Virus record (IMG/VR): IMGVR_UViG_3300044618_000344
Location: 1-31,089 of that record
From: a virus
Length of the DNA: 31,089 bases
Direction: 5' to 3' (one strand)
This document shows, piece by piece, positions 1 through 31,089 of this stretch. The first letter of the stretch is position 1. Every line of letters begins with the position of its first letter. The translations under genes and the position numbers were made by a program. The notes beneath the pieces were generated by a model. The model saw only the letters and a program-made list of their open reading frames with translations. It was not told where the DNA came from and searched no databases.

Positions 1-127
1 CAGCAGGGCGAGCAGCTTCAACTGCGGCAGCCTCAACTGTAGGTGTTGCTTCGACTGCTGGAGTGGTTTCCACTGTGGCTGTCTCGCTTTCTGTTGGTAG
101 GGTTTCTTCAACGGCTTCATCTTCAGA
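1..127. repeat. Exact 127-base direct repeat of 15525-15651 at the left window edge
   Basis: The first 127 bases match 15525-15651 without a mismatch; base 128 is C against T at 15652, and the copies then differ every 10-20 bases. The segment encodes the alanine-, glutamate- and threonine-rich linker of the capsid fusion. A 127-base perfect overlap at a contig edge equals a commonly used largest k-mer size, so it may be an assembly-graph overlap. Confidence 0.9.
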
Positions 128-577
128 CGCCGCTATATCAGTGACGGCTGCTGACTTAAATGCGGCGGCCTGCACTAAACTTACTTCGAGAAGGTCAGCA
201 CTCGATACATACAGCACGCCATTCTTAGGCTTTGCTGCATTGACCATAACGCCGACTGAAAGACCAGTACGGAGTTCTTCGCTAGCTTCGATTAGAGCAT
301 CGGTGCCACGGGATGATTTAGAGATCTTGAAAGATGCAAAGATGCCATCTTCTGTTTCATTAAAGAATTGAGCGCGGCCGATTGGCTGCTTAGGATCATG
401 CTCTAATAAGAGTTTCACTTTGCTTGAATCAGCTATGTTAATCGCGCCACGCTCAAAGACAACTGCGCCAGCTGAGGTGTTTCCGACCTCGCCGTTAAAA
501 GGGACTATCTTGCCAGAGATCGTGCGCTCTGACGCATCTGCTGTAAGTTCTGCAGAGAATGTAAGCATCTCGCTCAT
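1..577 (-). CDS. Prohead protease-major capsid fusion, N-terminal part, unit 1 (cut by window edge)
   Basis: The visible 192 codons encode the S78-type prohead protease domain and the start of an acidic Ala/Thr/Glu-rich linker. They match residues 1-192 of the intact gene at 14557-16101, including the histidine in LLEHDPKQPIGRA and the serine in ELRTGLSVG, the expected catalytic pair of this family. The protease cleaves scaffold or delta segments during head maturation. The ATG overlaps the portal stop as ATGA. The reading frame is open to base 1, so the gene is truncated only by the window. The capsid domain would continue in sequence equivalent to 15524 and below. Confidence 0.85.
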   Translation of the reverse strand, partial: MSEMLTFSAELTADASERTISGKIVPFNGEVGNTSAGAVVFERGAINIADSSKVKLLLEHDPKQPIGRAQFFNETEDGIFASFKISKSSRGTDALIEASEELRTGLSVGVMVNAAKPKNGVLYVSSADLLEVSLVQAAAFKSAAVTDIAASEDEAVEETLPTESETATVETTPAVEATPTVEAAAVEAARPA

Positions 578-1695
578 ATCATTCCTTCGCTTCCGTTAGG
601 TGTTAGGTCTGTCATTTCCATAGCTTGTTCTTGGGTGATCAACTGGAGATCAAGTAGTTCACGAATGATTGAAAGTTCTTTAAGTGGATCTACGCGCAAG
701 TAATTACTGTCAAGATCAAATTTTACAATGTTGCCGCGAGCTGTAATGTCATCCATTGACAGACGATCCTCTATTGCGGAAACGTAAGGCTGCAGGGATA
801 GCGTGAGAAACTGAAGCCTCTCGTCTTGGACGTTTGCATAGGTCATTGTCGTGTTCTGATCTGCTGAAACGTAATAAGGAGGGATGTTGCATAGGCGAGC
901 AATCTCTGTTGCAAGATTTTGAATTGCTTCGTTGTACATCATATCTTTAGGGCTAAATCCGACTGCCTCATATTGCAAGGTAGATGTCAGGTAAGCTGTA
1001 GAACGATTTTGACGTGCTGACTTCCATGCTGAAAGTAATCCTTGGACTTCTGCAGGTGGAAGATCGGCTCCAGAGTTGCGGATGTAACCTGTTGCCATAG
1101 GTGTTGCCGCTGCAACTACGCTAGCTTTTTGGATGTCCAAAGCTGCGCGAATTGTCGATGTGCCGGTGTTAAGAATGCCATCGGTAAGTGACTGGAATGT
1201 AATAAGAGAGCCGAGCCCGTCCATTGGCACTGTTGATCCGTCGATTGCATAAGACTTAACGAATACATTGTCGCGATCAAGTGTTGCCGTTACGCGGCTG
1301 TTAGCAATCCATTCAAAGCGTGATGGGCGTCCATCTTCTTGATAGGTTTCGACAACTTGCCAGAAGGCTTGCCCATAAAATAGAAGTGAATCAACTGTGT
1401 AAGCAATAGTAACTGAACGAGGCTGTGAATATGAAGGTTGATCTAGCCATAGTGGCTTGCCTAATTCTTCGCCCGTAGATTTTTTGTAAAGCTCAAGTGG
1501 AATTGTGCCAATCGTGCCAGCAAGTAGGTTACGGCAACGTGCCAGAGCAGGTACGCCCATAGCTTCTGTGCGACCAACGTAGGCAAATTGAAATGGCATC
1601 GCATAAGGAGAATACTCACCTAGTACCTGTGGAGCATACTGAGCTTCAACATTGGCTTTTGGTGCTGCACCTGTAAGGCGCGAAAGGATACCCAT
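574..1695 (-). CDS. Portal protein, HK97 type, unit 1
   Basis: A 373-aa protein that forms the dodecameric ring at one head vertex through which DNA enters and leaves and to which the tail attaches. The N-terminal half carries blocks usual in HK97-family portals (residues around MGVPALARCRNLLAGTIG, then IPLELYKKS and a YGQAFWQVV segment). It sits directly between terminase and the protease-capsid gene, the usual order. A TTG three codons upstream (1704) could also start the frame. I prefer ATG at 1695: a TATAAT box lies 8 bases before it and no ribosome binding site is visible, which fits a leaderless message. It is nearly identical to the unit 2 copy. Confidence 0.9.
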   Translation of the reverse strand: MGILSRLTGAAPKANVEAQYAPQVLGEYSPYAMPFQFAYVGRTEAMGVPALARCRNLLAGTIGTIPLELYKKSTGEELGKPLWLDQPSYSQPRSVTIAYTVDSLLFYGQAFWQVVETYQEDGRPSRFEWIANSRVTATLDRDNVFVKSYAIDGSTVPMDGLGSLITFQSLTDGILNTGTSTIRAALDIQKASVVAAATPMATGYIRNSGADLPPAEVQGLLSAWKSARQNRSTAYLTSTLQYEAVGFSPKDMMYNEAIQNLATEIARLCNIPPYYVSADQNTTMTYANVQDERLQFLTLSLQPYVSAIEDRLSMDDITARGNIVKFDLDSNYLRVDPLKELSIIRELLDLQLITQEQAMEMTDLTPNGSEGMI

Positions 1696-1703
1696 AGAGG
1701 GCA

Positions 1704-1709
1704 ATTATA
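1704..1709 (-). promoter_or_regulatory. Putative -10 box (TATAAT) for a leaderless portal transcript, unit 1
   Basis: The 19-base gap between terminase stop and portal ATG contains TATAAT on the minus strand, ending 8 bases before the ATG. This spacing would put the transcript start at or next to the start codon. No good -35 element is seen 17 bases upstream, where the sequence is still terminase coding. The same box and spacing recur in unit 2 at 17228-17233. Leaderless genes with this layout are common in Actinobacteria. Promoter activity is inferred. Confidence 0.5.
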
Positions 1710-1714
1710 CACTA

Positions 1715-3130
1715 TCAGATGTAAATAGCTGCTGTTTGTTGTGGTTTCATTAACATGGAAACTACCATGGCAAGAGAGATCGGCGCTGATACATCTCCGG
1801 CGCTCTTACGTTTGACAATGCGCCAGCTTGAATCGTTTGTCTTAGCCGCGCAATTATTCATCTGCTTAATCAATTCTTCTTGCCCGTTATGGACTACTCG
1901 ACCATTGACTAAACCATCAAGTAAGTCGGAGCAGGCCTGATAGAACTGCTGGCCTGACACGTCTTGCGTTATCTGTCCGGCATTGGCTAAGCGTTCACTA
2001 ATTGATTGCGACGTGTACTTATCAAAACAGATCATCTTTGGCCGATACTGATCAGCCCAACCTTTGATCTCCGCTGCTATTTTGAGATCATCGACTGAAA
2101 CTTGCGACTCCCATGTCTGCAAGATTCCCACTCCGATTCGTCCGTCGCCCATAATCTGACCAGCAACGAGGCTCGCATTGCGGCGAGATGGAGATACATC
2201 AAAGCCAAATACTGTATAGCCACCGACCGGAATTTCGAGCGACGCATCACTGGTCGCCTCAAGTACGCCATGAGGCCACGGACTTTGTAGAGAATCAATC
2301 CATTGACATAGAAGCTCTGTTCTAGTGTCCTCAATCTTATTAGTTGCGACAGCTTCTTCAAGTGACTCCTCCGTTATCGTATGACCGAGTGCTGGATTGG
2401 CCATTGCCCATCCATTGCGGTCTGTAATCTTGCAGTATTGCGGTGCTGAGTATTCGTAGAATCCAAATGACTTGGGAGGCGCAGAGAGCGCCCTCTCTCG
2501 TAAATTATTGAGTGTTTCTGAGAAGGCATCGCCAGCATTGCTACTCAAGAAGGTTTGCGAGTTAGGTCTTGCGCGAGTGGTCGGAATTGCAGCGGTGTAG
2601 CCATCCTTGCTGATCTCTCGAACCTCATCGATCCATAGGAAATCTGCCGTGCGGCCACGAGATGAGTCACGCGTGTCAGATACTAGGTCAAGGGTTGCCC
2701 CGTTAAGTAGCTCTATTCTTTCGCCACCGTTTGCATACCGGATCGCTTTAGTGCCAGCCTTAAGATGAGGCGCATTCTCGATGATCCATGCGATCTCACG
2801 AAAGGTCATCAAGGCTGTGGCTCGGTTAGAAGACATGATCAGATGCTTCATCTCGCCACCGTAAAACAGCCCCCAAATGACGCGCATACGTCCTAGATGG
2901 GACTTGCCATTCTGACGGGCTACTAATAGCAGGGATGTCTTGCGAATGTACATGCCTTTAGCATCCACTCGCATCATGTCATCCAAGACCCACTTCTGCC
3001 ACGGCATCAAGGGAGTTCCTAGATCATCTGCAAGTTTGGCAACCTCGTCTGCTCGTGTTTTACCCTTGAGAAGTGGACTGTGAAGCCTTGCTTTGATTGC
3101 CCCTCGTCGCGCCTGTTTACGAGCTGCCAC
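1715..3130 (-). CDS. terL: Terminase large subunit, unit 1
   Basis: A 471-aa packaging motor and nuclease that pumps DNA into the prohead and cuts the concatemer. The N-terminal ATPase shows a Walker A-like ARQNGKS at residues 71-77 and Walker B LWIDE ending at residues 168-169. The C-terminal RNase H-like nuclease begins near residue 305, with the first acidic residue in FGFDVSPSRRN (D311) and another in MICFDKY. Length is in the usual range for small siphoviruses. The start is GTG overlapping the HNH stop as TAGTG. An HNH gene lies immediately upstream, as in many HK97-type packaging modules, but no recognisable small subunit is present. Confidence 0.93.
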   Translation of the reverse strand: MAARKQARRGAIKARLHSPLLKGKTRADEVAKLADDLGTPLMPWQKWVLDDMMRVDAKGMYIRKTSLLLVARQNGKSHLGRMRVIWGLFYGGEMKHLIMSSNRATALMTFREIAWIIENAPHLKAGTKAIRYANGGERIELLNGATLDLVSDTRDSSRGRTADFLWIDEVREISKDGYTAAIPTTRARPNSQTFLSSNAGDAFSETLNNLRERALSAPPKSFGFYEYSAPQYCKITDRNGWAMANPALGHTITEESLEEAVATNKIEDTRTELLCQWIDSLQSPWPHGVLEATSDASLEIPVGGYTVFGFDVSPSRRNASLVAGQIMGDGRIGVGILQTWESQVSVDDLKIAAEIKGWADQYRPKMICFDKYTSQSISERLANAGQITQDVSGQQFYQACSDLLDGLVNGRVVHNGQEELIKQMNNCAAKTNDSSWRIVKRKSAGDVSAPISLAMVVSMLMKPQQTAAIYI

Positions 3131-3471
3131 TAGTCAGAACTATCTGTGACTGGTCGGGCAGTAAAGGGTGAATCTCGCATCGTTCTGGACTGCGTTGGGG
3201 ATATATTGCCAGAAAAGACAGGGGGGGTGGACTGTTGTGCTAAAAAAACGCCTTCTGATCGGCTTCCCTTGCGTGAGTTGCACCTTGCACAACATGACAC
3301 GAGATTATCGTACGCAATAGGATCACCGCCTTTAATGATAGGGATGATGTGATCCACTGTCGTGGCTGGTTGTCCACAATAGAAGCATGACCACTGATCA
3401 CGTTGCAACACCTCTAACCTACGCTTCTTGTATGCCCTAGTACCACGAGGATCACCGCGCTTTGTACTCAT
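3130..3471 (-). CDS. HNH endonuclease beside terminase, unit 1
   Basis: A 113-aa protein with the full HNH core: CFYC at about residues 30-33, VDHIIP, then NLV and CCARCN before RKGSRS, giving two zinc-binding Cys pairs and the DH catalytic pair. HNH proteins next to the terminase help the large subunit cut at packaging sites in HK97-like phages. The start overlaps the lysozyme-like gene stop as ATGA; an ATG two codons upstream (3477) is also possible. The tail (SPFTARPVTD) is shared with the unit 2 protein, but the unit 2 protein has about 85 extra N-terminal residues that are absent here. The coding strand holds a run of seven C that is kept in both units. Confidence 0.85.
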   Translation of the reverse strand: MSTKRGDPRGTRAYKKRRLEVLQRDQWSCFYCGQPATTVDHIIPIIKGGDPIAYDNLVSCCARCNSRKGSRSEGVFLAQQSTPPVFSGNISPTQSRTMRDSPFTARPVTDSSD

Positions 3472-3926
3472 TGCCATCCTTTAGTCTTTAGATGATGCAA
3501 TGCACCACAGTAGTTAGGATCTTCATACTCAGTCCATCCATACCTACGTCCTACATAGTGATAGTACATCCAAAATTGTGTGATTGCTGAGCTTCTCTTT
3601 AGGCTCTCAGTTTTCATCTGATAGAGCCCATAGACCCTCTTTGTGCCGCTTAGGTTACCTACTGCTTTATAGTTCCATCTTGATTCTCTATAGACAATCT
3701 CATGATGACACTTCTCTTGCTTCTCAGTTAATTGATAATCAGCTAATAGTTTTGCATATCTAATCTCTTTAGTGGCATCTATTGAGCCACTTGAATCAGG
3801 AGCTATGCTCATGAATAGAGCTGTCCCAATAACGAAGGCGACCACTCGCGCTCTGCCCTTACGGGCGCGTGCTGAGCCCCTGAAGGGCTCTCGCCTGAGA
3901 GTACCATCTGTGTCAAATACGTTCAT
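3468..3926 (-). CDS. Secreted or membrane-anchored lysozyme/transglycosylase-like protein, unit 1
   Basis: A 152-aa protein with a basic N-terminus, a hydrophobic segment at about residues 27-45 (VVAFVIGTALFMSIAP) and a C-terminal domain resembling SLT/lysozyme-type muramidases. The block IVYRESRWN gives a candidate catalytic glutamate at residue 81, followed by YGLYQMK and a conserved WTEY region. Cys73 and Cys140 could form a disulphide outside the membrane. The start at 3926 has AGGAG nine bases upstream; an ATG three codons earlier lies too close to that site. It ends in the HNH start. It may weaken the wall during lysis or after entry; the exact role is unknown. Confidence 0.65.
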   Translation of the reverse strand: MNVFDTDGTLRREPFRGSARARKGRARVVAFVIGTALFMSIAPDSSGSIDATKEIRYAKLLADYQLTEKQEKCHHEIVYRESRWNYKAVGNLSGTKRVYGLYQMKTESLKRSSAITQFWMYYHYVGRRYGWTEYEDPNYCGALHHLKTKGWQ

Positions 3927-3959
3927 GTGTAGCATCTCCTACAATCTCACTATGTGGAA

Positions 3960-3975
3960 TGTGAATTGGATCACA
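3960..3975. promoter_or_regulatory. CRP/GlxR-like palindromic operator TGTGA-N6-TCACA, unit 1
   Basis: TGTGAATTGGATCACA is a perfect 5+6+5 palindrome, the half-site layout of CRP-family regulators (GlxR in corynebacteria). It lies wholly inside the 50-base gap between the FmdB-like gene and the lysozyme-like gene, 34 bases before the latter's start. Unit 2 has no such site at the same place. Regulation by a host cAMP-type regulator is inference. Confidence 0.4.
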
Positions 3976-3976
3976 T

Positions 3977-4165
3977 TTATCTATTGTCAGTTGAATAGAA
4001 GCCTGAGCCTTTGAACGATACCCCTATCGAGCTGTAGACCTTATGCATAGGTGAATGACAGAATGGACACTCAAGGTCATGAGGTTCTGTGATGCTTAGC
4101 CATTCTTCTATGCGTGCATTGCTTTCACACTTCTCATTGTCACACTCGAACTCATAAGTTGGCAT
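3977..4165 (-). CDS. FmdB-like zinc-ribbon protein, unit 1
   Basis: A 62-aa protein that begins MPTYEFECDN and carries two cysteine pairs (CDNEKC and CPFC), ending VGVSFKGSGFYSTDNR. This is the layout of the FmdB regulatory-protein zinc ribbon, a short family found in bacteria and actinophages whose molecular role is not settled. The start chosen matches the family's MPTYE beginning, has GAGG upstream and overlaps the nuclease gene by 14 bases; an ATG five codons upstream is less likely. The unit 2 copy is the same length. Confidence 0.75.
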   Translation of the reverse strand: MPTYEFECDNEKCESNARIEEWLSITEPHDLECPFCHSPMHKVYSSIGVSFKGSGFYSTDNR

Positions 4166-4592
4166 CGGGATCAACCTCACACGTCCTGCATAGCGGTGTG
4201 AACGCCCATGCGCCGCACATCTTGCATCTCATAGGCTCTAGTGTATCTCGATCACCCTTGAAATCCCCGTAACCTGAACTGAGCAATAGATCGACCAAAT
4301 CACCAAGCCGCATAAAGGCCAAATAGTCTTGTGGACTAGCTTCTCCCTGACCATTTAAGCGACACACCACGATGGGCAAGTCTTGGGACTTGCTAGCTCT
4401 TTTGGTGACTTGATCGATCCATGCCTTTGGCTGGAACGCCGATCTAGCCTTAACTTCCATGTCGAACGGGACATGTGTTATATCTTTTCCAGCCCCTCTC
4501 CCGATGTCTGCATGTGGCCACCACTCCGAAAGGTAACGTGCGACCACACGCTCGGTTGAGAATCCTCTGTATTTACGGCTTTGTGAGGCCAT
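4152..4592 (-). CDS. PD-(D/E)XK-type nuclease, possible Holliday junction resolvase, unit 1
   Basis: A 146-aa protein whose first half shows a restriction-endonuclease-like active site: D37 in GKDITHV, then E46 and K48 in FDMEVKAR, after an N-terminal FSTERVVARYL helix. This is the D-(n)-ExK pattern of small resolvases and RecB-type nucleases. The C-terminus adds a CKMC...CRTC zinc pair. It lies among DNA-processing genes, so resolving recombination or replication branches before packaging is plausible. Family assignment rests on motif reading; a repair-type nuclease is an alternative. Confidence 0.65.
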   Translation of the reverse strand: MASQSRKYRGFSTERVVARYLSEWWPHADIGRGAGKDITHVPFDMEVKARSAFQPKAWIDQVTKRASKSQDLPIVVCRLNGQGEASPQDYLAFMRLGDLVDLLLSSGYGDFKGDRDTLEPMRCKMCGAWAFTPLCRTCEVDPDANL

Positions 4593-4803
4593 TGACCGCG
4601 TGACATTTCTCGCAAGACCATGACTTATTCACTAGGTTCACTTTAATGTCTTTGTAAGGGATTGAATCATTACATAGACAGCATCTAGTGGTAAATGTAA
4701 ACTCCTCTAAGATAGCGATGACTTCCTTAGATCGGTGAATCTCATCCTCTGTTGGGAATGACTCCCATTCACCATCTTGATTCTGAAACTGTAAGCGTCC
4801 CAT
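4573..4803 (-). CDS. Small zinc-ribbon protein, unit 1
   Basis: A 76-aa protein with two CxxC knuckles (CCLC and CEKC) about 27 residues apart near the C-terminus, after a charged N-terminus (MGRLQFQNQDGEWESFP). This suggests one zinc ribbon. It starts at a TAATG overlap with the ssDNA-protein stop and overlaps the nuclease gene downstream. I do not recognise a named family. Its placement between two DNA-processing genes hints at nucleic-acid binding, which is inference. Confidence 0.65.
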   Translation of the reverse strand: MGRLQFQNQDGEWESFPTEDEIHRSKEVIAILEEFTFTTRCCLCNDSIPYKDIKVNLVNKSWSCEKCHAVNGLTKP

Positions 4804-5480
4804 TACAGTCTAACCTGCCTTTGCCACGCCCCGGTTTCTTTATTGATCTCATACCAGACAGGATCTTTGCATTGATCTATTCTGCTTGACGTACACTTGA
4901 AATGAGCCCATGGTTTACCAGCCTTTGAAGTACCAGTTTTCCATGCCATCTCGCCATGAGGGCAATACTGGATGTCCGTCTCTTTCTGGCCTCCAATGAT
5001 CTCTTTCACCGTCGCAACAGCTTCCCCCATTGTGGGCGGCATAGTCGCTGGTTTGATAGTCCATGGATCATCCTCCTTTACTACGGGAATGTATTCGCCG
5101 GATGTCTGCGCCATCTTGGCCTTTGTCTCATCGATAATTGACTCAGTTTTCTTCATCGTTGCTACCTTGCTCATCTCTTCTCGAGAAGCTCTTTTACCCT
5201 TTGTTGCGTACCCTGCATTAGCCAAAGCGCGACCGATAGCAGATGTCTCACAATTCTCAAGCGCAGACGTCGCATTGACACCGCGACCCTGGACTGTCTC
5301 TTCCGCAAGTCCTGTAGTCCAAGGGCGTGAATCTGCCTCTGTGCGATAAATTTCAGCAAGGACAATAAAGCGACCTGAATCCTGATTGAGAAGCTTTGTG
5401 TGTATCTGACCATCGGGATGATCCTTCCAGTACTTAATAAGTCTTTCTTCTACTGTCTCATAATCTTCTAGATTAAACAT
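4803..5480 (-). CDS. Putative ssDNA annealing/binding protein (ERF/Rad52-like), unit 1
   Basis: A 225-aa protein. Residues 1-20 (FNLEDYETVEERLIKYW) and the block GRGVNATSALENCETSAIGRALANAGY resemble phage single-strand annealing or ssDNA-binding proteins, in which the E-x-SAIGRAL block is a hallmark. The C-terminal 60 residues contain a probable zinc site (CPHG...HFKC...QCKD) followed by WYEINKETGAWQ. It starts three codon-lengths after the 52-aa gene ends. With the nearby nuclease it would form a minimal recombination pair in a phage that lacks its own polymerase. ERF is my best guess; the family is not certain. Confidence 0.55.
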   Translation of the reverse strand: MFNLEDYETVEERLIKYWKDHPDGQIHTKLLNQDSGRFIVLAEIYRTEADSRPWTTGLAEETVQGRGVNATSALENCETSAIGRALANAGYATKGKRASREEMSKVATMKKTESIIDETKAKMAQTSGEYIPVVKEDDPWTIKPATMPPTMGEAVATVKEIIGGQKETDIQYCPHGEMAWKTGTSKAGKPWAHFKCTSSRIDQCKDPVWYEINKETGAWQRQVRL

Positions 5481-5484
5481 TATT

Positions 5485-5643
5485 TCACACCCTAACTGTT
5501 AAGTAATATGGCCCTAAAGTAATGTGAATTTCGCATTCCCACCAGCGATAATCATTAAAATCATCGCGTGTAAGGTCTAAGCCCAAACCAACCGTGTTTC
5601 TTAGCTTAAAATAATCAAATCGCTTTTCTCCATATTTAGACAT
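5485..5643 (-). CDS. 52-aa hypothetical protein found only in unit 1
   Basis: ATG at 5643 overlaps the end of the DUF6378 gene in another frame, with GGAG nine bases upstream, and the frame runs 52 codons to a TGA five bases before the ssDNA-protein start. The product is rich in aromatic and charged residues (DFNDYRWWECEIH). No family recognised. In unit 2 the DUF6378 end runs straight into the ssDNA-protein start, so the gene is a clean insertion or deletion. Confidence 0.6.
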   Translation of the reverse strand: MSKYGEKRFDYFKLRNTVGLGLDLTRDDFNDYRWWECEIHITLGPYYLTVRV

Positions 5644-5911
5644 AAAGCTCATTCTCCTCTGTGTGTAGTTGTCCGGCTATTGCAAGATAGGCAGCAGCGT
5701 CGATGTATGTATCGACTTTTGCAGACTCCATGCTTCGTGCGAGCTTGACCAATGCCATGCATGATGCCACTTGATAGTCAGTAATAGGCATTTGGAGGAA
5801 TGCTGACCAGAGACATGCTGTTCTGGACATATTGTCCGACGGGTGTCCGTAGTCCATTCCACGATCTTGAATTGTTGCCTTTGCTTCGTTGAGGAAATCA
5901 CTTGCTTTCAC
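5636..5911 (-). CDS. DUF6378 domain protein, unit 1
   Basis: A 91-aa protein with the DUF6378 pattern: AKATIQDRGMDYGHPSDN, then LWSAFL, then a conserved ALVKLAR and DTYIDAAAYLAIAG helix. This family is common in actinophage early regions and its fold is thought to resemble all-alpha NTP pyrophosphatases; a role in nucleotide handling is possible but unproven. Translation starts at GTG overlapping the previous stop as GTGA. The next gene starts inside its end. Confidence 0.75.
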   Translation of the reverse strand: MKASDFLNEAKATIQDRGMDYGHPSDNMSRTACLWSAFLQMPITDYQVASCMALVKLARSMESAKVDTYIDAAAYLAIAGQLHTEENELYV

Positions 5912-6063
5912 ACTTTTACCCTTTCCTTTGATGCGTAGTAAGCCCTAACAGCTTTGCGGCCTTTAAGATAGCCAACGCGGATGCCGACGATACGGCCTAA
6001 ATGGAACCATAGTGCAGATAACAGGATCATTACAACTGCATCGCCTAGAGATGGATCGAACAT
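5908..6063 (-). CDS. 51-aa single-span membrane protein, unit 1
   Basis: ATG at 6063 opens a 51-codon frame with one hydrophobic span at about residues 8-27 (AVVMILLSALWFHLGRIVG) and a basic C-terminus (YLKGRKAVR). Unit 2 encodes the same length at 21502-21657 with the same beginning (MFDPS) and end. The stop overlaps the GTG of the DUF6378 gene. A small inner-membrane protein of unknown role; its distance from the endolysin argues against a simple holin. Confidence 0.7.
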   Translation of the reverse strand: MFDPSLGDAVVMILLSALWFHLGRIVGIRVGYLKGRKAVRAYYASKERVKV

Positions 6064-6116
6064 GATTGCCCTTTCTTATCGACGCCCTTCGCCGATGAGA
6101 TAAGGATGACAGATGT
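6064..6116. other. Non-coding gap, unit 1
   Basis: This 53-base stretch between the acidic mini-gene and the 51-aa membrane gene is the largest or nearly the largest truly gene-free gap in the unit. It holds a weak CTTATC/GATAAG inverted repeat (6075-6080 and 6099-6104). I see no convincing promoter boxes. The gap in unit 2 (21658-21722) has different sequence. Confidence 0.5.
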
Positions 6117-6218
6117 CTAAGCTAGGTCAAGGATATTTAGATAACGAAATGGTAACGATTCTGCATCGTCTATGTGGTCATCGATCGACCGGGCTAGGTC
6201 GTTATCTAGGTCGTCCAT
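6117..6218 (-). CDS. 33-aa acidic mini-protein overlapping the phosphoesterase end, unit 1
   Basis: An ATG inside the last codons of the phosphoesterase, in another frame, opens 33 codons rich in aspartate (MDDLDNDLAR...HIDDAESLPFRYLN). Unit 2 keeps the same start and most residues but ends four residues earlier. Conservation of MDDLDNDL and DDAESLPFRYLNI supports a real gene, though part of the 5' sequence is constrained by the overlapping gene. Function unknown. Confidence 0.5.
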   Translation of the reverse strand: MDDLDNDLARSIDDHIDDAESLPFRYLNILDLA

Positions 6219-6948
6219 ACCGCTTGCCTGATACTACGAATGTCCCATCTTTCTCAATGTAAATAAGATCGACTTGTACGTTCTTGCCGTCCACATACAT
6301 GATGGCAAAACCTGACTGCCAGTTTGCAGAGCCTTTCGTGTAACTTGCCTTCGAAAAGTCCATAAGATTTCCCACTTCGACCCCATGCAGGACACGGCCT
6401 AAACGGCCTCCAGATGCCTCTGAGAACGACGATCTACCCATCCTGTGAGTATGACCTGAGATAACGCTTTTACCGTGCCTACGGGCCGCCTCAAGGGCTG
6501 AGAGACCCCCTTGAGACTTGATAGGGGTATGGTCGCCATGGACTGCTATCCAGCCCGGCGCGATGTTATAAGGCTTCTTATGAAAGGTGATCCCAAGCTC
6601 ATCGAATCTCATAAACTTCTCGAAGCGTAACTCAGGCAAGGATAGGAATGAGGGAATCTTCCTCATGATCTGATTGTAGAGGCGGTCTGTGTGATTAGAC
6701 CTTATGGTTTGCGTGACCTGTAAGTCGTAAAGGACTTGAACAGCTTCATCGCGATCATCTCCAAGAGTCTGCTCATAAGCCTCTGGCGTCCCCTCTGACC
6801 ACTTGCTAATCGTGTTGAAATCAATCTCGTCGCCGATCGTTACTACCTCGTGCGGCTTAAACTTACTGATAAAGCTGGCTAGATTCTTAACTGCGTGTCT
6901 ATCGTGGAAGGGAACCTGTAGGTCGCTCACTATGACAATGCGCTTCAT
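6202..6948 (-). CDS. Calcineurin-like metallophosphoesterase, unit 1
   Basis: A 248-aa enzyme with the full set of metallophosphoesterase motifs: SDLQVPFHDRH (D9, H15), GDEID (D40, D43), SNHTD (N85, H86), VHGDH near 137-140 and SGHTHR (H166, H168). These bind two metals and hydrolyse phosphomono- or phosphodiesters. The substrate is unknown; related actinophage proteins are annotated only as metallophosphoesterases and could act on nucleic acid or nucleotides. The start at 6948 is fixed by a TAATG overlap with the 72-aa gene and matches the unit 2 start; a longer upstream reading is less likely. Confidence 0.88.
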   Translation of the reverse strand: MKRIVIVSDLQVPFHDRHAVKNLASFISKFKPHEVVTIGDEIDFNTISKWSEGTPEAYEQTLGDDRDEAVQVLYDLQVTQTIRSNHTDRLYNQIMRKIPSFLSLPELRFEKFMRFDELGITFHKKPYNIAPGWIAVHGDHTPIKSQGGLSALEAARRHGKSVISGHTHRMGRSSFSEASGGRLGRVLHGVEVGNLMDFSKASYTKGSANWQSGFAIMYVDGKNVQVDLIYIEKDGTFVVSGKRYGRPR

Positions 6949-7166
6949 TAATCCTCGTCGTCGTCCTCGTAGGGTATGCGATCCACTCGGTCGGGGATCG
7001 ATGGCAAGATCCAATCAGGATAGGCATCTTTGTCGCTAATGAGTGCGAGTGAGATATCGACTGCAAAACCTGCACGCCGAAGCGCACGATACATCTCATG
7101 GAGACTGATAGCCCATTGATCTAAAGCGTTGTAAGTGTCTAGGTCGATGACCTTCTTCTTAGCCAT
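6948..7166 (-). CDS. 72-aa conserved hypothetical protein, unit 1
   Basis: Starts MAKKKVIDLDTY, has a probable helix (HEMYRALRRAGFAVDISLALI) and ends in an acidic tail (PDRVDRIPYEDDDED). Unit 2 has the same length and ending. It is coupled to the phosphoesterase by TAATG. I do not recognise a family; its place suggests it works with, or is simply co-expressed with, the phosphoesterase. Confidence 0.7.
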   Translation of the reverse strand: MAKKKVIDLDTYNALDQWAISLHEMYRALRRAGFAVDISLALISDKDAYPDWILPSIPDRVDRIPYEDDDED

Positions 7167-7174
7167 GTCGAAAA

Positions 7175-7324
7175 TTATCGCTCTAAGAGTATGTTATAGA
7201 TCTCATCGACACGCGAGTTGAGTCGCTTAATCTCAGACAGTAGATGCGTTATGACATAACCTGCAAGTCCACCGATCACGGCAAGGCTGGCAAAGTAAAG
7301 AGTAAAAAAGTTTTCTTGAGTCAC
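7175..7324 (-). CDS. 49-aa membrane protein with C-terminal helix, holin/lysis candidate, unit 1
   Basis: GTG at 7324 overlaps the stop of the preceding holin candidate as GTGA and opens 49 codons. The product has one membrane span (about residues 6-26, FTLYFASLAVIGGLAGYVIT) and a C-terminal heptad-like helix (LSEIKRLNSRVDEIYNILLER). The unit 2 protein is identical in all residues although 14 codons differ synonymously. Location right after endolysin and holin suggests a lysis function such as second holin or spanin-like partner; inferred from context. Confidence 0.7.
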   Translation of the reverse strand: MTQENFFTLYFASLAVIGGLAGYVITHLLSEIKRLNSRVDEIYNILLER

Positions 7325-22761: not shown

Positions 22762-22769
22762 GGTAAAAA

Positions 22770-22919: not shown

Positions 22920-23059
22920 TTTTTAGGGCTCGCGTATCCGAAGACTCCAGCAACGATCGATCCAAGGATGGCGCGATAGTCCAGAGCAAAGTTAGAGGTT
23001 GTACCCCAGACGGCTAAGAATGCTCCGATTGAGATTACTACTGGGTGCTTCATGTTCAT
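22916..23059 (-). CDS. Holin candidate, 47 aa, unit 2
   Basis: A short frame starting at a TAATG overlap with the endolysin stop: MNMKHPVVISIGAFLAVWG, then TTSNFALDYRAIL and GSIVAGVFGYASPKK. Two hydrophobic stretches (about residues 6-19 and 31-43) suggest a small two-span holin. It is not evidently related to the 61-aa gene at the same place in unit 1. Holin function is inferred from position. Confidence 0.6.
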   Translation of the reverse strand: MNMKHPVVISIGAFLAVWGTTSNFALDYRAILGSIVAGVFGYASPKK

Positions 23060-23764: not shown

Positions 23765-24636
23765 ACTGGATACCTCACAATTACAATTCCAGATCCACCT
23801 GAACCACCAGTTTGTGATTGTGGGCCACCGCCGCCGCCGCCGCCTGTGTTGGCTGCTCCGGCAGAACCGTTATTGCTTGGCGCGCCAGCCGCACCACCAC
23901 CACCTAATCCTGGAGTTCCCAAAGTTCCAAGGAAAAAAGTTCCTCCTGCACCGCCGCCTGCATAATATCCTGATACACCTGTGCTAGTTGCTGTCGCCCA
24001 ACTTGAATAAGTATTCAAACCATCACCACCATTGCCTGCAACTGAGGCACTTGTTGCGTTTCCTCCAACATTACCTGCGCCACCACCGCCGCCTGCGGCA
24101 TATGGACTGGCTGTAAAACTTCCATTTGAACCGCCAGCATTACCTTGACCAGATGGAGAAGCTGCACCGCCAGAAACTAAAGCACCGCCAAAACCATCAG
24201 TAGATGCCGCACCACCGCCTGAACCGCCAGCACGACCATTATTTGCACCGGGAGCGCCGCCGCCAGCTCCACCGCCGCCTGCGGCATTTGTTAAGCCTGT
24301 AAAAGTTGTGGCATTACCATCTGCGCCTGTAGTTGAAGCAGCAGGGGCAGCACCACCTGCGCCAATTACTATGGAATAACTTCCCAATAAACTTTGAGCA
24401 GATGAATAAAGAAGTCCACCTGCACCGCCACCGCCGCCTGAATATGTACCACCAGTTCCTGAACCACCGCCAGCAATTCGTAATACATCGCAAGTAATTG
24501 GTATGCCACTAATACTTAAAGTTCCATTAGCAGTAAATACTCGATAATTATAGCCGCCAGAAGTGTATAAAGTACCTCCCGTAACTATTGCAATTTGAGT
24601 GGGAGACAATAAGCCTGTAATTGAATTGGCGATCAT
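23761..24636 (-). CDS. Glycine-rich tail-tip protein, unit 2
   Basis: A 291-aa protein. The first 10 residues (MIANSITGLL) resemble unit 1's tip protein start. Then comes YNYRVFTANGTLSIS and DVLRIAGGGSG, and long Gly/Ala/Ser runs (many GGGGGAGG blocks) ending GGSGGSGIVIVRYPV, the layout of phage glycine-rich tip domains built from polyglycine helices that act as adhesins. It would replace the LamG-like protein as host-recognition module. The start is fixed by TAATG; a start nine codons upstream is less likely. GC-rich triplet repeats lie in the coding sequence near 23827-23843. Confidence 0.75.
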   Translation of the reverse strand: MIANSITGLLSPTQIAIVTGGTLYTSGGYNYRVFTANGTLSISGIPITCDVLRIAGGGSGTGGTYSGGGGGAGGLLYSSAQSLLGSYSIVIGAGGAAPAASTTGADGNATTFTGLTNAAGGGGAGGGAPGANNGRAGGSGGGAASTDGFGGALVSGGAASPSGQGNAGGSNGSFTASPYAAGGGGGAGNVGGNATSASVAGNGGDGLNTYSSWATATSTGVSGYYAGGGAGGTFFLGTLGTPGLGGGGAAGAPSNNGSAGAANTGGGGGGGPQSQTGGSGGSGIVIVRYPV

Positions 24637-25025
24637 TATCCTATTGCACCCACAACATACCAAGTATCTGTGCCAGTCTTAATACATGCTGCGCTCTTAT
24701 ATTGTCCCAAAGTAGGCTGAGCCGCTACTGCACCTGCTGAAAGAACTGTAGTTGTGCCAGAAGTGACGGCCTTGATTGTGCAAAGACCAGCACCGATATT
24801 GAGAACTGTAATGACTGTGCCGATTGGGAATGCTACTGAAGCGTTGGTTGGGATGTTGAAAGCGATCGCTGTAGCCTTGTTCATAATCTCTAAGACCTGA
24901 TAGGCGTCAGCGATGACTGCCGTGTAGTCGGTCGTGTTAGCTGCGCCTACAGTAAAGGCTACTAGGCCGTTATAGTCGGCGGCTGTAAAGATGTCGCCTG
25001 TTGTTGCTGGAAAGCCTTCTGCCAT
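24636..25025 (-). CDS. 129-aa tail-tip or tail-surface protein, unit 2
   Basis: Same length and ending (TWYVVGAIG) as the unit 1 protein, with most changes in residues 23-60. It keeps MAEGFPATTGDIFTAADYNG. Its conservation while the neighbouring tip protein is swapped supports an adaptor role between hub and adhesin. Confidence 0.6.
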   Translation of the reverse strand: MAEGFPATTGDIFTAADYNGLVAFTVGAANTTDYTAVIADAYQVLEIMNKATAIAFNIPTNASVAFPIGTVITVLNIGAGLCTIKAVTSGTTTVLSAGAVAAQPTLGQYKSAACIKTGTDTWYVVGAIG

Positions 25026-25034
25026 GATTTTCTC

Positions 25035-26279
25035 CTAGTATCCCATAATGGATTGTCCGATTATACCGTAAGTCGATGATCCTATAATGAATCCCTCGAC
25101 TATAGGCTCAAGTGTTGTGACTGTGCATTTCATGCTGTTAGGGGTTATGTCCCACGCCAAGCCCTGCACCTGCAAGGTCTTAACGATTGTCGATCCGTCT
25201 GGCTGAACGTTAGTGATCTTGACGTTATCGAAATAATCTAGGCCGATCATTGTGTCGGTAGGTACGGCAGTATCAAGTAGATCGACAGTCATGGCATCGA
25301 TGCGGATAGTTGTCTCAGCTCTAGTGGCTACATAGATTTTGGCAATGTCTAGAACCTGAGCATCTGTCTCAGGAATCATGTCTGTGATAGTCGTGCCATG
25401 AGGAAAATACTTAGCCGATGAATCGACGTTATTAGCAGTCTGGGCTGAACCACCAATGCGAGTCATATTGGCTTGATTGACGATCAACTTATCGTCGAAG
25501 GCATACTTCAAGTCTGAATATGGAATACCTGTAGTCTGATTGAACTCAATAGGTGCTGGAGCCAAAGACCCAACTACATCGCTACGATCCTTGAACTCCG
25601 CGCTACCGTCACTACGGATAAAGAATGCGCCCTGCTCTGCAAACTCTGCCGCTTTGATTGCTGCTAAGGCAGTACGAGCTGTGCCCGGATCGGCTTGGAC
25701 TGTTGTTGATCCTGTGTCCGTGATTCTCATCGAGGTAGGGAATGAGACTTGATCAAGGATCTTGGTAATGCGTGTGCCTGTGGTCTGGCCTGCCGTTGCT
25801 CCGCTTATGCTGGCCACGTTAGCCATCTGAAATAGTCTGAAAGCATCATTGCAGACGATATCGACGTAGCCAATCTCTTGACCTGTTGGGTAGTAATACC
25901 TGTAAGAATCAACGTAGCCTGAGAATAAGAAGCTCTGCGTGGTTGCAGTAGTAGCCGCTACTCGGATCTTGCGTAGTGGAGTTAAGTAGCCAAAATAAGG
26001 TGATGACGTATTCTGAGGGTTGAAATAAGAATCAGGGTCTAGCACCCTGATTATGCATGTGCCAGATTCGTAGGTGTCGCGCATGACGTTACGGCCTCGA
26101 CTGATCTTGATTGATCGAGTGACGTCGCTGAGATCGACTACTGGATCAGGTACTTCTGTAGCCGCGAACTGAGATACTCCGATGACTCCGTTAATTGGAT
26201 CGCCAATAGTAAAAGGGTAGCCGAATGTAGCGCCTTGGCTAAAGTCAAAAGATACCGAGATACTGGCAGGCAGCGTCAT
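25035..26279 (-). CDS. Minor tail protein, Dit/Tal-like, unit 2
   Basis: A 414-aa protein collinear with unit 1 and with the same landmarks (ISRGRNVMRDTYESGTC, LTPLRKIRVAATTATTQ, LFSGYVDSYRYY) and an identical C-terminal stretch ending IGSSTYGIIGQSIMGY. Begins at the tape-measure stop. Role as tail hub inferred from position and pattern. Confidence 0.8.
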   Translation of the reverse strand: MTLPASISVSFDFSQGATFGYPFTIGDPINGVIGVSQFAATEVPDPVVDLSDVTRSIKISRGRNVMRDTYESGTCIIRVLDPDSYFNPQNTSSPYFGYLTPLRKIRVAATTATTQSFLFSGYVDSYRYYYPTGQEIGYVDIVCNDAFRLFQMANVASISGATAGQTTGTRITKILDQVSFPTSMRITDTGSTTVQADPGTARTALAAIKAAEFAEQGAFFIRSDGSAEFKDRSDVVGSLAPAPIEFNQTTGIPYSDLKYAFDDKLIVNQANMTRIGGSAQTANNVDSSAKYFPHGTTITDMIPETDAQVLDIAKIYVATRAETTIRIDAMTVDLLDTAVPTDTMIGLDYFDNVKITNVQPDGSTIVKTLQVQGLAWDITPNSMKCTVTTLEPIVEGFIIGSSTYGIIGQSIMGY

Positions 26280-27922
26280 TAGAGAGCAACCGCGCCTTTA
26301 TATTCTGATCGATTTAAGGAACTGAACGTTCCTGATAATGAATCATTTTGTTGTAATTCCGTAAGCGCTCCAGCTATAACATCGCCATCTAAAACAACTG
26401 TAACGTTAATAGGATTGACGCCAGCAATTACTCCAGCGCTTAAGCCTCCCATTGGCCCAACCTGTCTGCGACTATTGGAAGGAACATTAAAATCAGGCAT
26501 AACGCCGCCGGGGCCTTTACTCTTGTTTGCAATAGTGCCACCTATGCCAGCACCGCCACCAGCACCGCCACCTGTATCTGAACCAACGAGAACGCCTCCA
26601 CCACTTGCTAAGATAGGGGGAATAGGTGGGATCCATTGAGCGTAAGGGTTAGGTGCTAGTGGTGTAGCAAGTAGGGCTGCTCTTAATTCATTATTGCGCT
26701 TGACGGCTGCTTCTAGATCAGCAGATAACTTAGTTGCAAGTACATCGTTCTTATCCAAAAGGGCTAATTGCAATTCCAAAGACAGACGATCGGTCTCGCT
26801 GATTTTACCCTTAAGCGCCGCTGTCGCTCCAATGCGATCTAGGTCAAGAGTCTTTGATGCTTTAGTAAGCGCGTTCTGTTTCTTTTGACTATCTAAAGTT
26901 TTCTTTTGAAGTGCTGCTAATTCTTTAGCGCGCTTGAGTGCATCGGCCTCAGCCTTTTTACGAGCTGCTGCATTTGGATCAATATAGCCCGGTCCTAAAG
27001 CAGACGATGGATACCCACCCATTCTGGGACGATCGCCCTGCTTTTTTGCAAAACTTAAAGCGTCGCCAAATACAATGGAATCAAAGAATGGTTGAGTATA
27101 GGTAATAAATTTCTCGAAAATTGTGGCTATAGGGCCAACCGTATCTTGTATCCCTTTGCCGAATTTGGCTAGATTGGTGAGCGCTAGTGCGGTGTTATCA
27201 GATAATTCTTTCATAGTCGTTGCTAGATCGGCGACAGTAGTATCGCCTGAAAGAATCATAAGGGCATCGATTAGACCCTCACCTATAGTCTCTTGAGCCT
27301 CGCCAGCGGCGGTGGTAAGCAATTCCATCTTGCCAGCATAGGTTGTAAGGTAGGCCGCATTCGCTCCAGTAAATTGTTTAACAAGCTTTGCTTGAACGTC
27401 TGCAAAACTCATGGTCTTTAATTCTGCCTGAGTTAGTCCTAGAGAATACTTGCGAAGACCTCGTGTCTGGCCTACATAAGCCATGCTGAGATCGTTGACC
27501 ACAGTCTCAAAATCAACTCCAGAGCCACGTGAAATGTCTAAGGCTTGAGTAAGTAGTTGTGTGGACTTAGTAAGTGAGCCAGTAGTCTGCAATAACTTCT
27601 GCATTGATGGACGAAGTTGATCGTCGGTAACGCCAGAAGCTTTAGATAGTTGGCTGATAAATTCTTCAATGCGTAAAGTATCAAAGGCTAAACCTAGATT
27701 CTTAACTGCTTGGGCTAATTGAGTTGCAGCCTTCTGATCTTCCATAAATGCCTTGGAAGCATTCTTAGCGAACTTGAGAAGTTGTTGGGCTCCAAAGGTT
27801 GCAGCAAGGCTTGCACCTAATCGCTTGACGCCTTTATCTAGCGCGCTAAGGCTTTTGTTGGTGTCGCTAAATGCTTTCTTGCCTTTGTTTTCGACGACAA
27901 TCGGAATCCGTAACTCAGCCAT
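26279..27922 (-). CDS. Tape measure protein, unit 2
   Basis: A 547-aa protein, 41 residues longer than unit 1. The first ~220 residues and the coiled coil (QKKTLDSQKKQNALTKASKT) are related to unit 1; the middle (about 225-320) is different, and a glycine-rich insertion (VGSDTGGGAGGGAGIGG) lies near residue 455. Expected tail length is a little greater than in unit 1, by estimate near 82 nm. Confidence 0.88.
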   Translation of the reverse strand: MAELRIPIVVENKGKKAFSDTNKSLSALDKGVKRLGASLAATFGAQQLLKFAKNASKAFMEDQKAATQLAQAVKNLGLAFDTLRIEEFISQLSKASGVTDDQLRPSMQKLLQTTGSLTKSTQLLTQALDISRGSGVDFETVVNDLSMAYVGQTRGLRKYSLGLTQAELKTMSFADVQAKLVKQFTGANAAYLTTYAGKMELLTTAAGEAQETIGEGLIDALMILSGDTTVADLATTMKELSDNTALALTNLAKFGKGIQDTVGPIATIFEKFITYTQPFFDSIVFGDALSFAKKQGDRPRMGGYPSSALGPGYIDPNAAARKKAEADALKRAKELAALQKKTLDSQKKQNALTKASKTLDLDRIGATAALKGKISETDRLSLELQLALLDKNDVLATKLSADLEAAVKRNNELRAALLATPLAPNPYAQWIPPIPPILASGGGVLVGSDTGGGAGGGAGIGGTIANKSKGPGGVMPDFNVPSNSRRQVGPMGGLSAGVIAGVNPINVTVVLDGDVIAGALTELQQNDSLSGTFSSLNRSEYKGAVAL

Positions 27923-28434
27923 TAGATGCCTCTCGAATTAAACTTAGCGGCGGCCTTTTCTAGCGCTCGGATAACTCCGACCTTAGCCTTGCCTTCATCT
28001 TGTTCATAAGCCTTGAACATTGCACGTCCTGCCATCTTTGCACGCCCTGCAAGTGATCCTTGAAATCTAGGGGTGAAGTTGCCAGAGATACCGGACTTGC
28101 GTCCAGCGGTTTCCACGATCGCACCAGCTGCGGTCTTGTTATGAATCGACACGCTCTGCACCCATCCTTGGCGGTTAGGCTTGGTAGGTGTGAGCTTGTA
28201 GCCAATACCTCGACGAGCCTCGGCCGCGTCATACATTGGGAACTTAGCGGTCTTGACTTCGTGCTTTACGAATCCAGAAGGAGCCTCTGAATTAGATGGA
28301 AGAAACCCTCTAGCCTTTTTTACCAATGGCTTTAAGAATCCGACCATCTCATCACGAGTCTCTTTGTCTAGATCAGGCGAGAACTGCTTGAGAGCCTTGC
28401 GAAGCGCACTAGCGCCTTTTAGCTCTGTAGGCAT
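27922..28434 (-). CDS. 170-aa tail or neck protein, unit 2
   Basis: Nearly identical to unit 1 over residues 1-100, then diverges (ETAGRKSGISGNFTPRFQGS) before the shared C-terminal helix (GKAKVGVIRALEKAAAKFN). It starts within the frameshifted chaperone end and stops at the tape measure start. Structural role likely, family uncertain. Confidence 0.55.
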   Translation of the reverse strand: MPTELKGASALRKALKQFSPDLDKETRDEMVGFLKPLVKKARGFLPSNSEAPSGFVKHEVKTAKFPMYDAAEARRGIGYKLTPTKPNRQGWVQSVSIHNKTAAGAIVETAGRKSGISGNFTPRFQGSLAGRAKMAGRAMFKAYEQDEGKAKVGVIRALEKAAAKFNSRGI

Positions 28435-28830
28435 CTGCCTGCTCCTTTGCTCTATCCTTCAGCGCCTTGAGTAGCATCTGAAGCATCGATGTATCTAGAT
28501 CGATCAAAGATTGTGGAGGGATAGCCGTCTCAATGCTCAAGCGAGCGATGAGATAGTGGATGCTATCCCTGCCTAGGCCAAAGGGTCAGACTCAGCAACC
28601 TCTACACTCTTGAGAGTTTCGAGAAAGTCCGGACCGAATGGCTTGACTGTGGTTCCACTTAACCTAAGGCCTTCCCATGCCAACCAATAGACATCTGACT
28701 GCTTCTCATCATCGCGAAACGCTTTGTGAAAACCCTTTTTAGCATATAGCTCGAACGCGTACTCCAATCGAGGGGTAATCTCGATCTCGGTAACGCTGTT
28801 GTCCGCTAATGTGACTATTAACTTTGCCAT
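28409..28830 (-). CDS. Tail assembly chaperone, long form by -1 frameshift, unit 2
   Basis: The same slip (C CCT TTG at 28579-28585) extends the 85-aa frame by 56 residues to a 140-aa product that contains GLGRDSIHYLIARLSIETAI and ends AYRAKRR as in unit 1. Stop position relative to the slip is identical in both units. Conservation of both frames is strong evidence of use. Confidence 0.85.
28573..28830 (-). CDS. Tail assembly chaperone, short form, unit 2
   Basis: An 85-aa protein (MAKLIVTLADNSVTEIEITP) ending SDPLA just past the slippery site. It differs from unit 1 at scattered residues in the middle. It is the common product of this locus. Confidence 0.85.
   Translation of the reverse strand: MAKLIVTLADNSVTEIEITPRLEYAFELYAKKGFHKAFRDDEKQSDVYWLAWEGLRLSGTTVKPFGPDFLETLKSVEVAESDPLA
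28579..28585 (-). promoter_or_regulatory. Slippery site CCCTTTG for -1 frameshift, unit 2
   Basis: Identical heptamer and phase to the unit 1 site, six bases before the zero-frame stop. Confidence 0.8.
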
Positions 28831-28853
28831 GCTGTGCCCCTTTGTTTAGTTTC

Positions 28854-29273
28854 TTAGAATGTACCTGTTGTGGCAACTGCGATAGTACCAGAGACGTTGA
28901 AGGTGAGGCTCTGTGTTGAGAGATCGCCTACTGCGCCGTTGATGTCTGTCGTGTTGTTGATAAGGCAAGTCATTGTGTAAAGAGGGTTAGTCGCACCTAC
29001 TGCGGTTCCCTTTTCCTGAAGTAGAACGATTGTGACGTTTGTTCCCCATGCTGCTTGAAGTGTTGCAAGTACGTTCGCTGCTGCTGTGTCGTTAAGGAAA
29101 TCGATTGTGACCGATGATGCCTCTAGACCCTTGACGAACTTATGGCCTGAGTCACCCATTGCGGTTACTTCAAGCTCATCGAATGCGCGGTTAAGTGTTA
29201 CTGCGGTAACGTGATCTGATAGATCGACTGAGTTAACCTTCACGCCGACCTTGTTGCTCATAAATACAGCCAT
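28854..29273 (-). CDS. Major tail protein, unit 2
   Basis: A 139-aa tail-tube protein like unit 1 (FDELEVTAMGDSGHKFVKGLE, VTIDFLND). Differences are clustered toward the C-terminus (GAVGDLSTQSLTFNVSGTIA). The spacing to the chaperone and its AAAGGGG ribosome site is the same. Confidence 0.85.
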   Translation of the reverse strand: MAVFMSNKVGVKVNSVDLSDHVTAVTLNRAFDELEVTAMGDSGHKFVKGLEASSVTIDFLNDTAAANVLATLQAAWGTNVTIVLLQEKGTAVGATNPLYTMTCLINNTTDINGAVGDLSTQSLTFNVSGTIAVATTGTF

Positions 29274-29277
29274 GAGA

Positions 29278-29379
29278 TTATTCCTCGTCTTTCTTAGTAG
29301 TTACTGGCTTTGGTGTTGATGGTGCTACCTGCCCGATTTTCTTCAGGAAGGCTTCTTGCTCTTTTTCCCACTCGGACAT
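29278..29379 (-). CDS. 33-aa basic/acidic peptide, unit 2
   Basis: Same start, ribosome site and length as in unit 1; the two changes are LI to LK and K kept (FLKKIGQVAP for FLIKIGQVAP). It sits between tail terminator and major tail protein. Function unknown. Confidence 0.6.
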   Translation of the reverse strand: MSEWEKEQEAFLKKIGQVAPSTPKPVTTKKDEE

Positions 29380-29380
29380 T

Positions 29381-29770
29381 TTAGCTCCAACTCGTTAGGA
29401 CTGAGATATTGATATTGCATGTAAGTAGATCACCGGACGCGGCACTCAGCACGGCTGGAGCCGATACCTCTGTGACGTTGTAGGTGTAGGTCGATGCAGC
29501 GAGCAGGTTAAAAACCCGGACGATGTTATCTTCCATCCCGTTAAGGTTGCCTTCATTATCGAGCAAGGGAACCATGACGGAAATAACGAAATTGGCCATA
29601 GGCGAGATCGATGCATGCCATCCGTTAGACGGCGAGATGTAAGGATCTGCTGGCGCTACGATCACGCTGTTGGCGATCGGTGTTGCAGGTGGAAATGAAA
29701 AGACTGAGTATTTTGTATTATCGGTAAGAGCTGCGGCTATACCTGCGCGGAGTGTTGATATGGCGGCCAT
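29381..29770 (-). CDS. Tail terminator-like protein, unit 2
   Basis: A 129-aa protein with the same pattern as unit 1 (SNGWHASISPMANFVISVMV) and few changes, mostly in the N-terminal 25 residues. Placed between connector and the 33-aa peptide. Confidence 0.65.
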   Translation of the reverse strand: MAAISTLRAGIAAALTDNTKYSVFSFPPATPIANSVIVAPADPYISPSNGWHASISPMANFVISVMVPLLDNEGNLNGMEDNIVRVFNLLAASTYTYNVTEVSAPAVLSAASGDLLTCNINISVLTSWS

Positions 29771-30342
29771 TAGCCCACCATCGATCTCGGATCAAGATAA
29801 GGTGCTAAAAGGCCACGCACGCGCGCTAGCAGCGTGTTGCCCATCCGATAAGGGCTTGGCTGATATCCATCGATGGTAACGCCGCCGCTTGATGGCGCTT
29901 GACGGCTCTGCCAGATGTCGATGGAGATCATGAGAGACGCTTCTTGAATCGCTGGAATCGTTGTGTAATCTGTATAAGTCTCAGCTGCTGCAATCCCGAA
30001 AGGCTCGACTGTGTGACGTGGATTATCGCTTGTGTGAGTCGTGGTTATGTTAAATGATCGAGCGTCAACGCCTGTGATTGTCCTGGTACCGTTGTACTTA
30101 GTACCCGCACCTGAGATTACGACTGATTGTCCGACGTAAAATACTTCACGAATGTTCTGATCGAAGTAGAGAGTACCGACTGTGCCTGTGTTGCCATGAG
30201 CAATGATGTACTGCTGATTCTTCCATAGAAAGGGCAAGAGTACGTTATCTGCGGCATCGCAGACAGATTGCAAGACTGCATCAGTATAGAGAGTGCCAAC
30301 GCCTAGGGCGGTGCGTAATTCTGCAACTGTGGTCAATGCCAT
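29770..30342 (-). CDS. Head-tail connector protein, unit 2
   Basis: A 190-aa protein that differs from unit 1 at a single residue (NGTRTITG for NGTKTITG) while many codons differ synonymously. It is the most conserved large protein I compared, as expected for a part that contacts portal and tail at once. Confidence 0.75.
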   Translation of the reverse strand: MALTTVAELRTALGVGTLYTDAVLQSVCDAADNVLLPFLWKNQQYIIAHGNTGTVGTLYFDQNIREVFYVGQSVVISGAGTKYNGTRTITGVDARSFNITTTHTSDNPRHTVEPFGIAAAETYTDYTTIPAIQEASLMISIDIWQSRQAPSSGGVTIDGYQPSPYRMGNTLLARVRGLLAPYLDPRSMVG

Positions 30343-30362
30343 GCTCTTATCCTTTCTAAAGA

Positions 30363-30393
30363 CTGGTGGGGTAGAAGGGCACTACCCCACCAG
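30363..30393. terminator. Perfect 12-bp hairpin after the capsid gene, unit 2
   Basis: CTGGTGGGGTAG pairs with CTACCCCACCAG around AAGGGCA. Compared with unit 1, the C-G and A-T pairs in the stem have become T-A and G-C, so pairing is preserved through two compensatory changes and the loop is unchanged. Same location, between capsid stop and connector start. Confidence 0.75.
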
Positions 30394-30408
30394 CGACTTA
30401 AGGGTGGC

Positions 30409-31089
30409 TTACGCCTTGTTGTTCTTGAATGCGCCTGCGCCGACCTTGGTAGCAATTGCTCCGAAGCCGTAGTAGCCGATTGTTACCTGACCTGCGGCTG
30501 TTGACTCAGCGCGTAGGCGGTATGTTGGTGACTCGTACCATGTGTACGCATCTGGGTTAACGATGAGGATTGTTCCATCGCCATCGCCGCCGTTTGTTGG
30601 ATCAACGTAAAGGTTAAGTCCGGCAACGTTACCTGTGAGTGAAGTTGGAGCAACTGCTCCGCCAGCGTTCATCGGATTTGTCGCTGTGTAAATCGGACGT
30701 CCTGAATCGTTGAGAGACATGATGTTTGACCATTGTCCTGTAGATACGACCATGTTGCGAGCAAATGGATTTGGAAGTCCTGCTGTTGCGCCATAAACAG
30801 ATGCTGATCCGCGAGCAACAATTCCGAGAAGCTCGGCTGCTGTTGGGTAAGTTACTGTTGTTGTAGCATCTGCAGTTGCGCCTGAGATAAGTGCAGCGTT
30901 TACTGCTGAGTTAGTTGCCTTTGCGTAAGCTGCTGCCATGTTGCGAACAAGCTCATCGAAGAATGCTGGAGATGTACGATCAAGCAATTCGACAGAGAAT
31001 GTCTGCTGTCCAGCGTACTTCTGTACTGTTACTGAAAGGAAGCTTGAGTTCTGATCTGTGTCGCTGAATGCGTCGCCTTCTGGCTCGAT
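30409..31089 (-). CDS. Major capsid protein, C-terminal part, unit 2 (cut by window edge)
   Basis: The visible 226 codons are the C-terminal part of the capsid domain (ELLDRTSPAFFDELVRNMAAAYAK onward to GAFKNNKA) and align with residues 289-514 of the intact gene. Few residues differ (NSAV for NAAV, NDSGRPIYTATNP for NDAGRPIYTASQP). The frame is open to the right edge. The protease domain would lie beyond the window or be supplied by the sequence matching 15238-16101. Confidence 0.88.
   Translation of the reverse strand: MEPEGDAFSDTDQNSSFLSVTVQKYAGQQTFSVELLDRTSPAFFDELVRNMAAAYAKATNSAVNAALISGATADATTTVTYPTAAELLGIVARGSASVYGATAGLPNPFARNMVVSTGQWSNIMSLNDSGRPIYTATNPMNAGGAVAPTSLTGNVAGLNLYVDPTNGGDGDGTILIVNPDAYTWYESPTYRLRAESTAAGQVTIGYYGFGAIATKVGAGAFKNNKA
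30995..31089. repeat. Exact 95-base direct repeat of 15143-15237 at the right window edge
   Basis: The last 95 bases match 15143-15237 exactly; the base before (A at 30994 against T at 15142) differs. Together with the left-edge repeat, it brackets a capsid core of 509 bases (15143-15651) that both units appear to share and that is present in full only once in the window. Confidence 0.9.

Follow-up and report, generated by a model that had tools for sequence, protein, structure and literature searches.

A 31-kb IMG/VR virus record is very probably a chimeric contig of two related small phages

Arthrobacter phage Decurro and its relatives (Decurrovirus) have genomes of 15,524-15,556 bp, which is the size of one unit of the DNA described here. 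As for the assembly of such genomes from mixed samples, chimeras of co-existing viruses with similar regions have been documented for viromes (PMC5610896), and conserved regions are known as places where de Bruijn assemblers fragment or mix strains (PMC11443906). Is a virus record with a doubled gene order then a double genome, or a product of this kind? The window, by which we mean the whole stretch of 31,089 nt that was analysed (IMG/VR virus record IMGVR_UViG_3300044618_000344), consists of two diverged, collinear copies of one phage gene order. By self-BLAST, positions 1-3371 match 15525-18892 and positions 11417-15237 match 27264-31089, both at 82%, and weaker collinear blocks lie between the two matches. 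The offsets between the copies are exactly 15,524 and 15,852 nt. The boundaries, the offsets and the two-copy gene order given in an earlier note on this DNA are thus borne out. Each unit has one portal, one terminase, one metallophosphoesterase and one phrog_5313 protein, and tail genes occur in each (Table 1). The same note described the copies as diverged with swapped genes. This agrees with the 82% blocks and with several modules that are unlike between the units, for example 8172-8942 in unit 1 versus 23761-24663 in unit 2; the HNH genes also differ in length. Its placing of a single-copy 287-nt core at the junction, with both edges in the capsid gene, proved exact. It further took the cores of the two units to be identical. 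The printed core agrees with that of unit 2 in every letter; the window does not contain the core of unit 1, whose identity with the printed one is assumed.

Table 1. Coordinates of the features in the window
Feature	Position	Strand	Remarks
Unit 1 (genome A)	1..15237		Self-BLAST; lacks its own capsid core; closure via an equal-length core would give 15,524 nt
Capsid core, 287 nt, single copy	15238..15524		Identical to the core of unit 2 / L113
Unit 2 (genome B)	15525..31089		With the core, equals the stand-alone 15,852-nt genome L113
Portal, unit 1	574..1704	-	phrog_12
Portal, unit 2	16098..17228	-	95% aa identity to unit 1 portal
Large terminase, unit 1	1715..3130	-	phrog_9
Large terminase, unit 2	17236..18654	-	phrog_9
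HNH endonuclease, unit 1, 115 aa	3130..3477	-	PF01844; spans probable cos site
HNH endonuclease, unit 2, 201 aa	18654..19259	-	Spans probable cos site
Capsid-protease fusion gene at inner join	14557..16101	-	phrog_2263; PF04586 + PF05065
Unit 1 capsid gene, N-terminal part, cut by left contig end	2..577	-	
Unit 2 capsid gene, C-terminal part, cut by right contig end	30409..31089	-	
Left contig end	1..127		Equals 15525-15651 exactly; first difference at 128; length equals largest k (127)
Right contig end	30995..31089		Equals 15143-15237 exactly, 95 nt
Probable cos site, unit 1, 13-nt cohesive sequence CCCCCCTGTCTTT	3214..3226	-	Contig breaks; inside HNH gene
Probable cos site, unit 2, same 13 nt CCCCCCTGTCTTT	18738..18750	-	Inside HNH gene

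The main evidence on the nature of the record comes from contigs that contain unit 2 on its own. One of them, L113 (IMGVR_UViG_3300042507_000101), is 15,885 nt long with a 33-nt direct terminal repeat, which implies a circle closing at 15,852 nt. This is the size predicted from the window (31089 minus 15237). L113 is identical to window positions 18711-31089 over 12,379 of 12,379 nt and to the core over 287 of 287 nt, and it matches 15525-18743 at 3,218 of 3,219 nt; the lone mismatch, at 16926, is the only one in the whole circle. In its capsid gene, unit 2 sequence leads into the core and continues on the other side of it. L113 is thus the same as unit 2 in sequence and closure but, unlike the window, it is without unit 1. 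In L003 (3300042366_000292), which comes from another sample, the core is likewise flanked by unit 2 on both sides (99.9%), and L083 follows unit 2 at 99.98% and ends at 15642, within the shared stretch. Unit 2 is therefore a complete separate genome that spans the join without a partner. We conclude with high confidence that the window is a chimeric metagenome contig of two separate related small phages, A of about 15.5 kb and B of 15,852 nt. The earlier note had offered, as one of two options, that an assembler merged sibling genomes at the capsid stretch, and this option is strongly favoured by the finding that unit 2 occurs elsewhere as a closed 15,852-nt genome re-entering itself via the core. 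It should be noted that L113, L003 and L118 (see below) are records other than the window; they show that the genomes exist apart and are not the reads of this sample.

The other option was true adjacency of the two genomes as a new genome arrangement. This option is without support, and nothing calls for it. Both ends of the contig coincide with the borders of the shared stretch, and the relatives that are nearly complete measure about 15-16.4 kb and have one portal. Real adjacency is almost certainly wrong. One form of it would be a stable element, such as a tandem prophage array or a phage-plasmid cointegrate, for which the contig itself is the sole support. Against such an element, the window showed neither host DNA nor a tRNA or plasmid gene, no relative of the portal turned up in 84,980 bacterial and archaeal genomes, the relatives that are close to full length measure one unit, and unit 2 alone forms a closed genome, so that for the unit 2 sequence the idea is contradicted by L113. 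We regard it as extremely improbable.

How could two genomes have been joined in this way? The capsid gene at the inner join takes its N-terminal part and the core from unit 2 and its C-terminal part from unit 1, and both contig ends repeat the inner copy, so the outer limits of the contig coincide with the borders of the stretch through which the units are joined. Under the chimera explanation, A and B would both have been in the sample, with up to 509 nt of capsid sequence (15143-15651) in common, and in the assembly graph each genome would form a loop through that stretch. The assembler would have come out of loop A, passed through the shared stretch, gone around loop B and stopped on meeting the shared stretch again. 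On such a path the core would appear a single time, at the centre, with the contig beginning and ending at its borders. While we infer the walk itself, the self-closure of unit 2 elsewhere, the end overlaps and the common words all fit it. With A closed by the printed core, which is an assumption, 127-mers common to A and unit 2/L113 occur only in the 509-nt capsid stretch. With the same closure, two further short blocks are common to unit 1 and L113 at k=55, and there are no further ones at k>=77. To judge from the usual source of IMG/VR, the window was probably made by a pipeline of the bbcms/metaSPAdes kind. The k values were taken from papers running the same bbcms/metaSPAdes command line, which give 33,55,77,99,127 for a published metagenome run (PMC11584781) and the same series for an NMDC workflow run (PMC12993620). 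The exact left overlap fits a k=127 pipeline. The exact right overlap does not fit cleanly and counts against the chimera explanation: for a clean k=127 branch the contig would have to run on for another 32 nt. There are additional mismatches at distances of 98, 107 and 140 nt from the contig end. As for the ends of relatives' contigs, 11 of the 18 that lie in the capsid gene fall within 15143-15651, while about 6 would be expected by length; the comparison was made post hoc, and the clustering is modest evidence.

For unit 1 there is a partial match. Contig L118 (IMGVR_UViG_3300035680_000240) agrees with unit 1 at every position of 2950-12945 (9,996 nt, 100%), is without unit 2 sequence and ends after 31 nt of the core. 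There is a sharp mosaic break at 12946, past which, up to about 15000, the identity of L118 to unit 1 is just 83-89%; this L118 segment is matched by no other fetched contig above 90%. Natural recombination or another chimera separates L118 and unit 1 past 12946. A contig closing the unit 1 head module was not found with exact capsid-flank patterns or with protein searches using unit 1's 506-aa gene and portal; in these searches only L118 matched the rest of unit 1 at 100%. This negative result counts against the chimera explanation, in which unit 1 would presumably close through its own core. There is a further question, whether unit 1 is itself a single genome. It may have been put together from two lineages, with a break near 12946 and perhaps another at TerL, before it was joined to unit 2. 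Two observations point in this direction, namely that L118 shares the 2950-12945 part exactly and has a different head module, and that no fetched contig is at least 98% identical to the unit 1 head module in 400-nt steps while the rest of unit 1 is matched at 100%. On the other side, the chimera might be L118, or either contig might have arisen by natural recombination. An origin from more than two genomes is therefore a tentative and rather doubtful proposal; it would refine the explanation of the window as an assembly chimera and does not compete with it.

A probable cos site gives another view of the genome ends. About 25 contigs from many samples begin within a few nt after CCCCCCTGTCTTT (e.g. 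L004, L005, L016, L025, L104 and L143), and two, L144 and L149, end just before it. The motif lies upstream of TerL and is nearly invariant across the group. The 13 nt are lost on both sides, which fits a 3' cohesive overhang. From these contig boundaries, CCCCCCTGTCTTT is probably the cos site, and the phages would be cos-type small siphophages. This bears on a second form of real adjacency, in which a co-infected cell would have held replicating head-to-tail A-B DNA, produced by recombination of A with B inside the capsid gene. If such a concatemer were real, the terminase would cut at each cos site and package 15,524-nt A/B hybrid particles. Consistent with it, each unit has an intact probable cos site, with a spacing of 15,524 nt between the two, the hybrid capsid gene stays open across the join, and the relatives look mosaic, as in the change of L118 from full to partial identity with unit 1. 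But it leaves unexplained why both contig ends sit at the edges of the same shared stretch, and it does not account for the exact 127-nt overlap at the start. Moreover, there is no second contig with the hybrid join: an exact 129-nt core pattern was found in 6 other viral contigs, and in no other contig from the exact core search does unit 1 join unit 2, whereas L113 and L003 join unit 2 to itself. We consider a recombinant concatemer very unlikely, and an assembly chimera remains the preferred explanation.

Is a double length usual in these phages? The group is small and widespread, with contigs in many IMG/VR samples. Near-full-length relatives are 15.1-16.4 kb long with one portal each, so one unit is the rule and a double length typical of the group was rejected. 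Among 39 portal-counted records, three others (G015, G025 and G037) have two portals, each pair from different lineages; the portals have the same orientation in G015 and opposite orientations in G025 and G037. None of the three is a tandem of near-identical copies. G015 (L115 + L116, 29,664 nt) is a head-to-tail double contig whose shared genes are about 61-65% alike. Its two genomes meet around 15348-15360, on or close to the cos motif, and the part to the right opens in the way that L074 naturally starts; the library step or the assembly may have linked different phages there through cohesive ends of identical sequence. G037 (L169 + L170, 27,155 nt) and G025 (L035, 11,133 nt), with opposite-orientation portals of different lineages, are probably further chimeras. 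An over-long contig with one portal, G008 (L051 + L117, 24,694 nt), is possibly composite. Since other two-genome contigs occur, records of 24-31 kb in this phage group should be treated as suspect. The window is a warning in this respect: a 31-kb record may seem to be a double-sized phage or a new tandem arrangement, and length and gene count then mislead.

Which known phages are these genomes like? The best cultured matches are actinophages. Judged by gene order and size, the phages are probably small siphophages of the cos type, like 15-17-kb actinophages such as Decurro. They share with phages of the Decurro kind the genome size, about 15-16.5 kb, and the presence of TerL, portal, capsid-protease fusion and an HNH gene at the right end. 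In Decurro (15,524 bp) as in the window units the order is TerL, portal and capsid/protease fusion, and the HNH gene lies at the right end, beside the genome end. The likeness in sequence is low. The capsid is about 43% identical to that of Decurro in amino acids over about 30% of its length. The portal is about 28% identical to those of small Arthrobacter phages similar to Decurro. The best TerL matches are about 28% identical, and Decurro is not among the matches listed. On the capsid and TerL figures, membership in the genus Decurrovirus was rejected. No repressor/excisionase block was identified in the window, another difference from Decurro, and the window phages, unlike Decurro, are known here from metagenome sequence. 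As to the host, isolated phages of Nanopelagicales are about 39 kb (PMC10202952), so assigning the window phages to that order stays a guess.

Compared with known viral-metagenome chimeras (PMC5610896, PMC11443906), the window is likewise made of two genomes joined via a conserved stretch, with contig ends at the edges of that stretch. The difference is that here both partners are nearly whole, and the product therefore looks like a tandem double genome.
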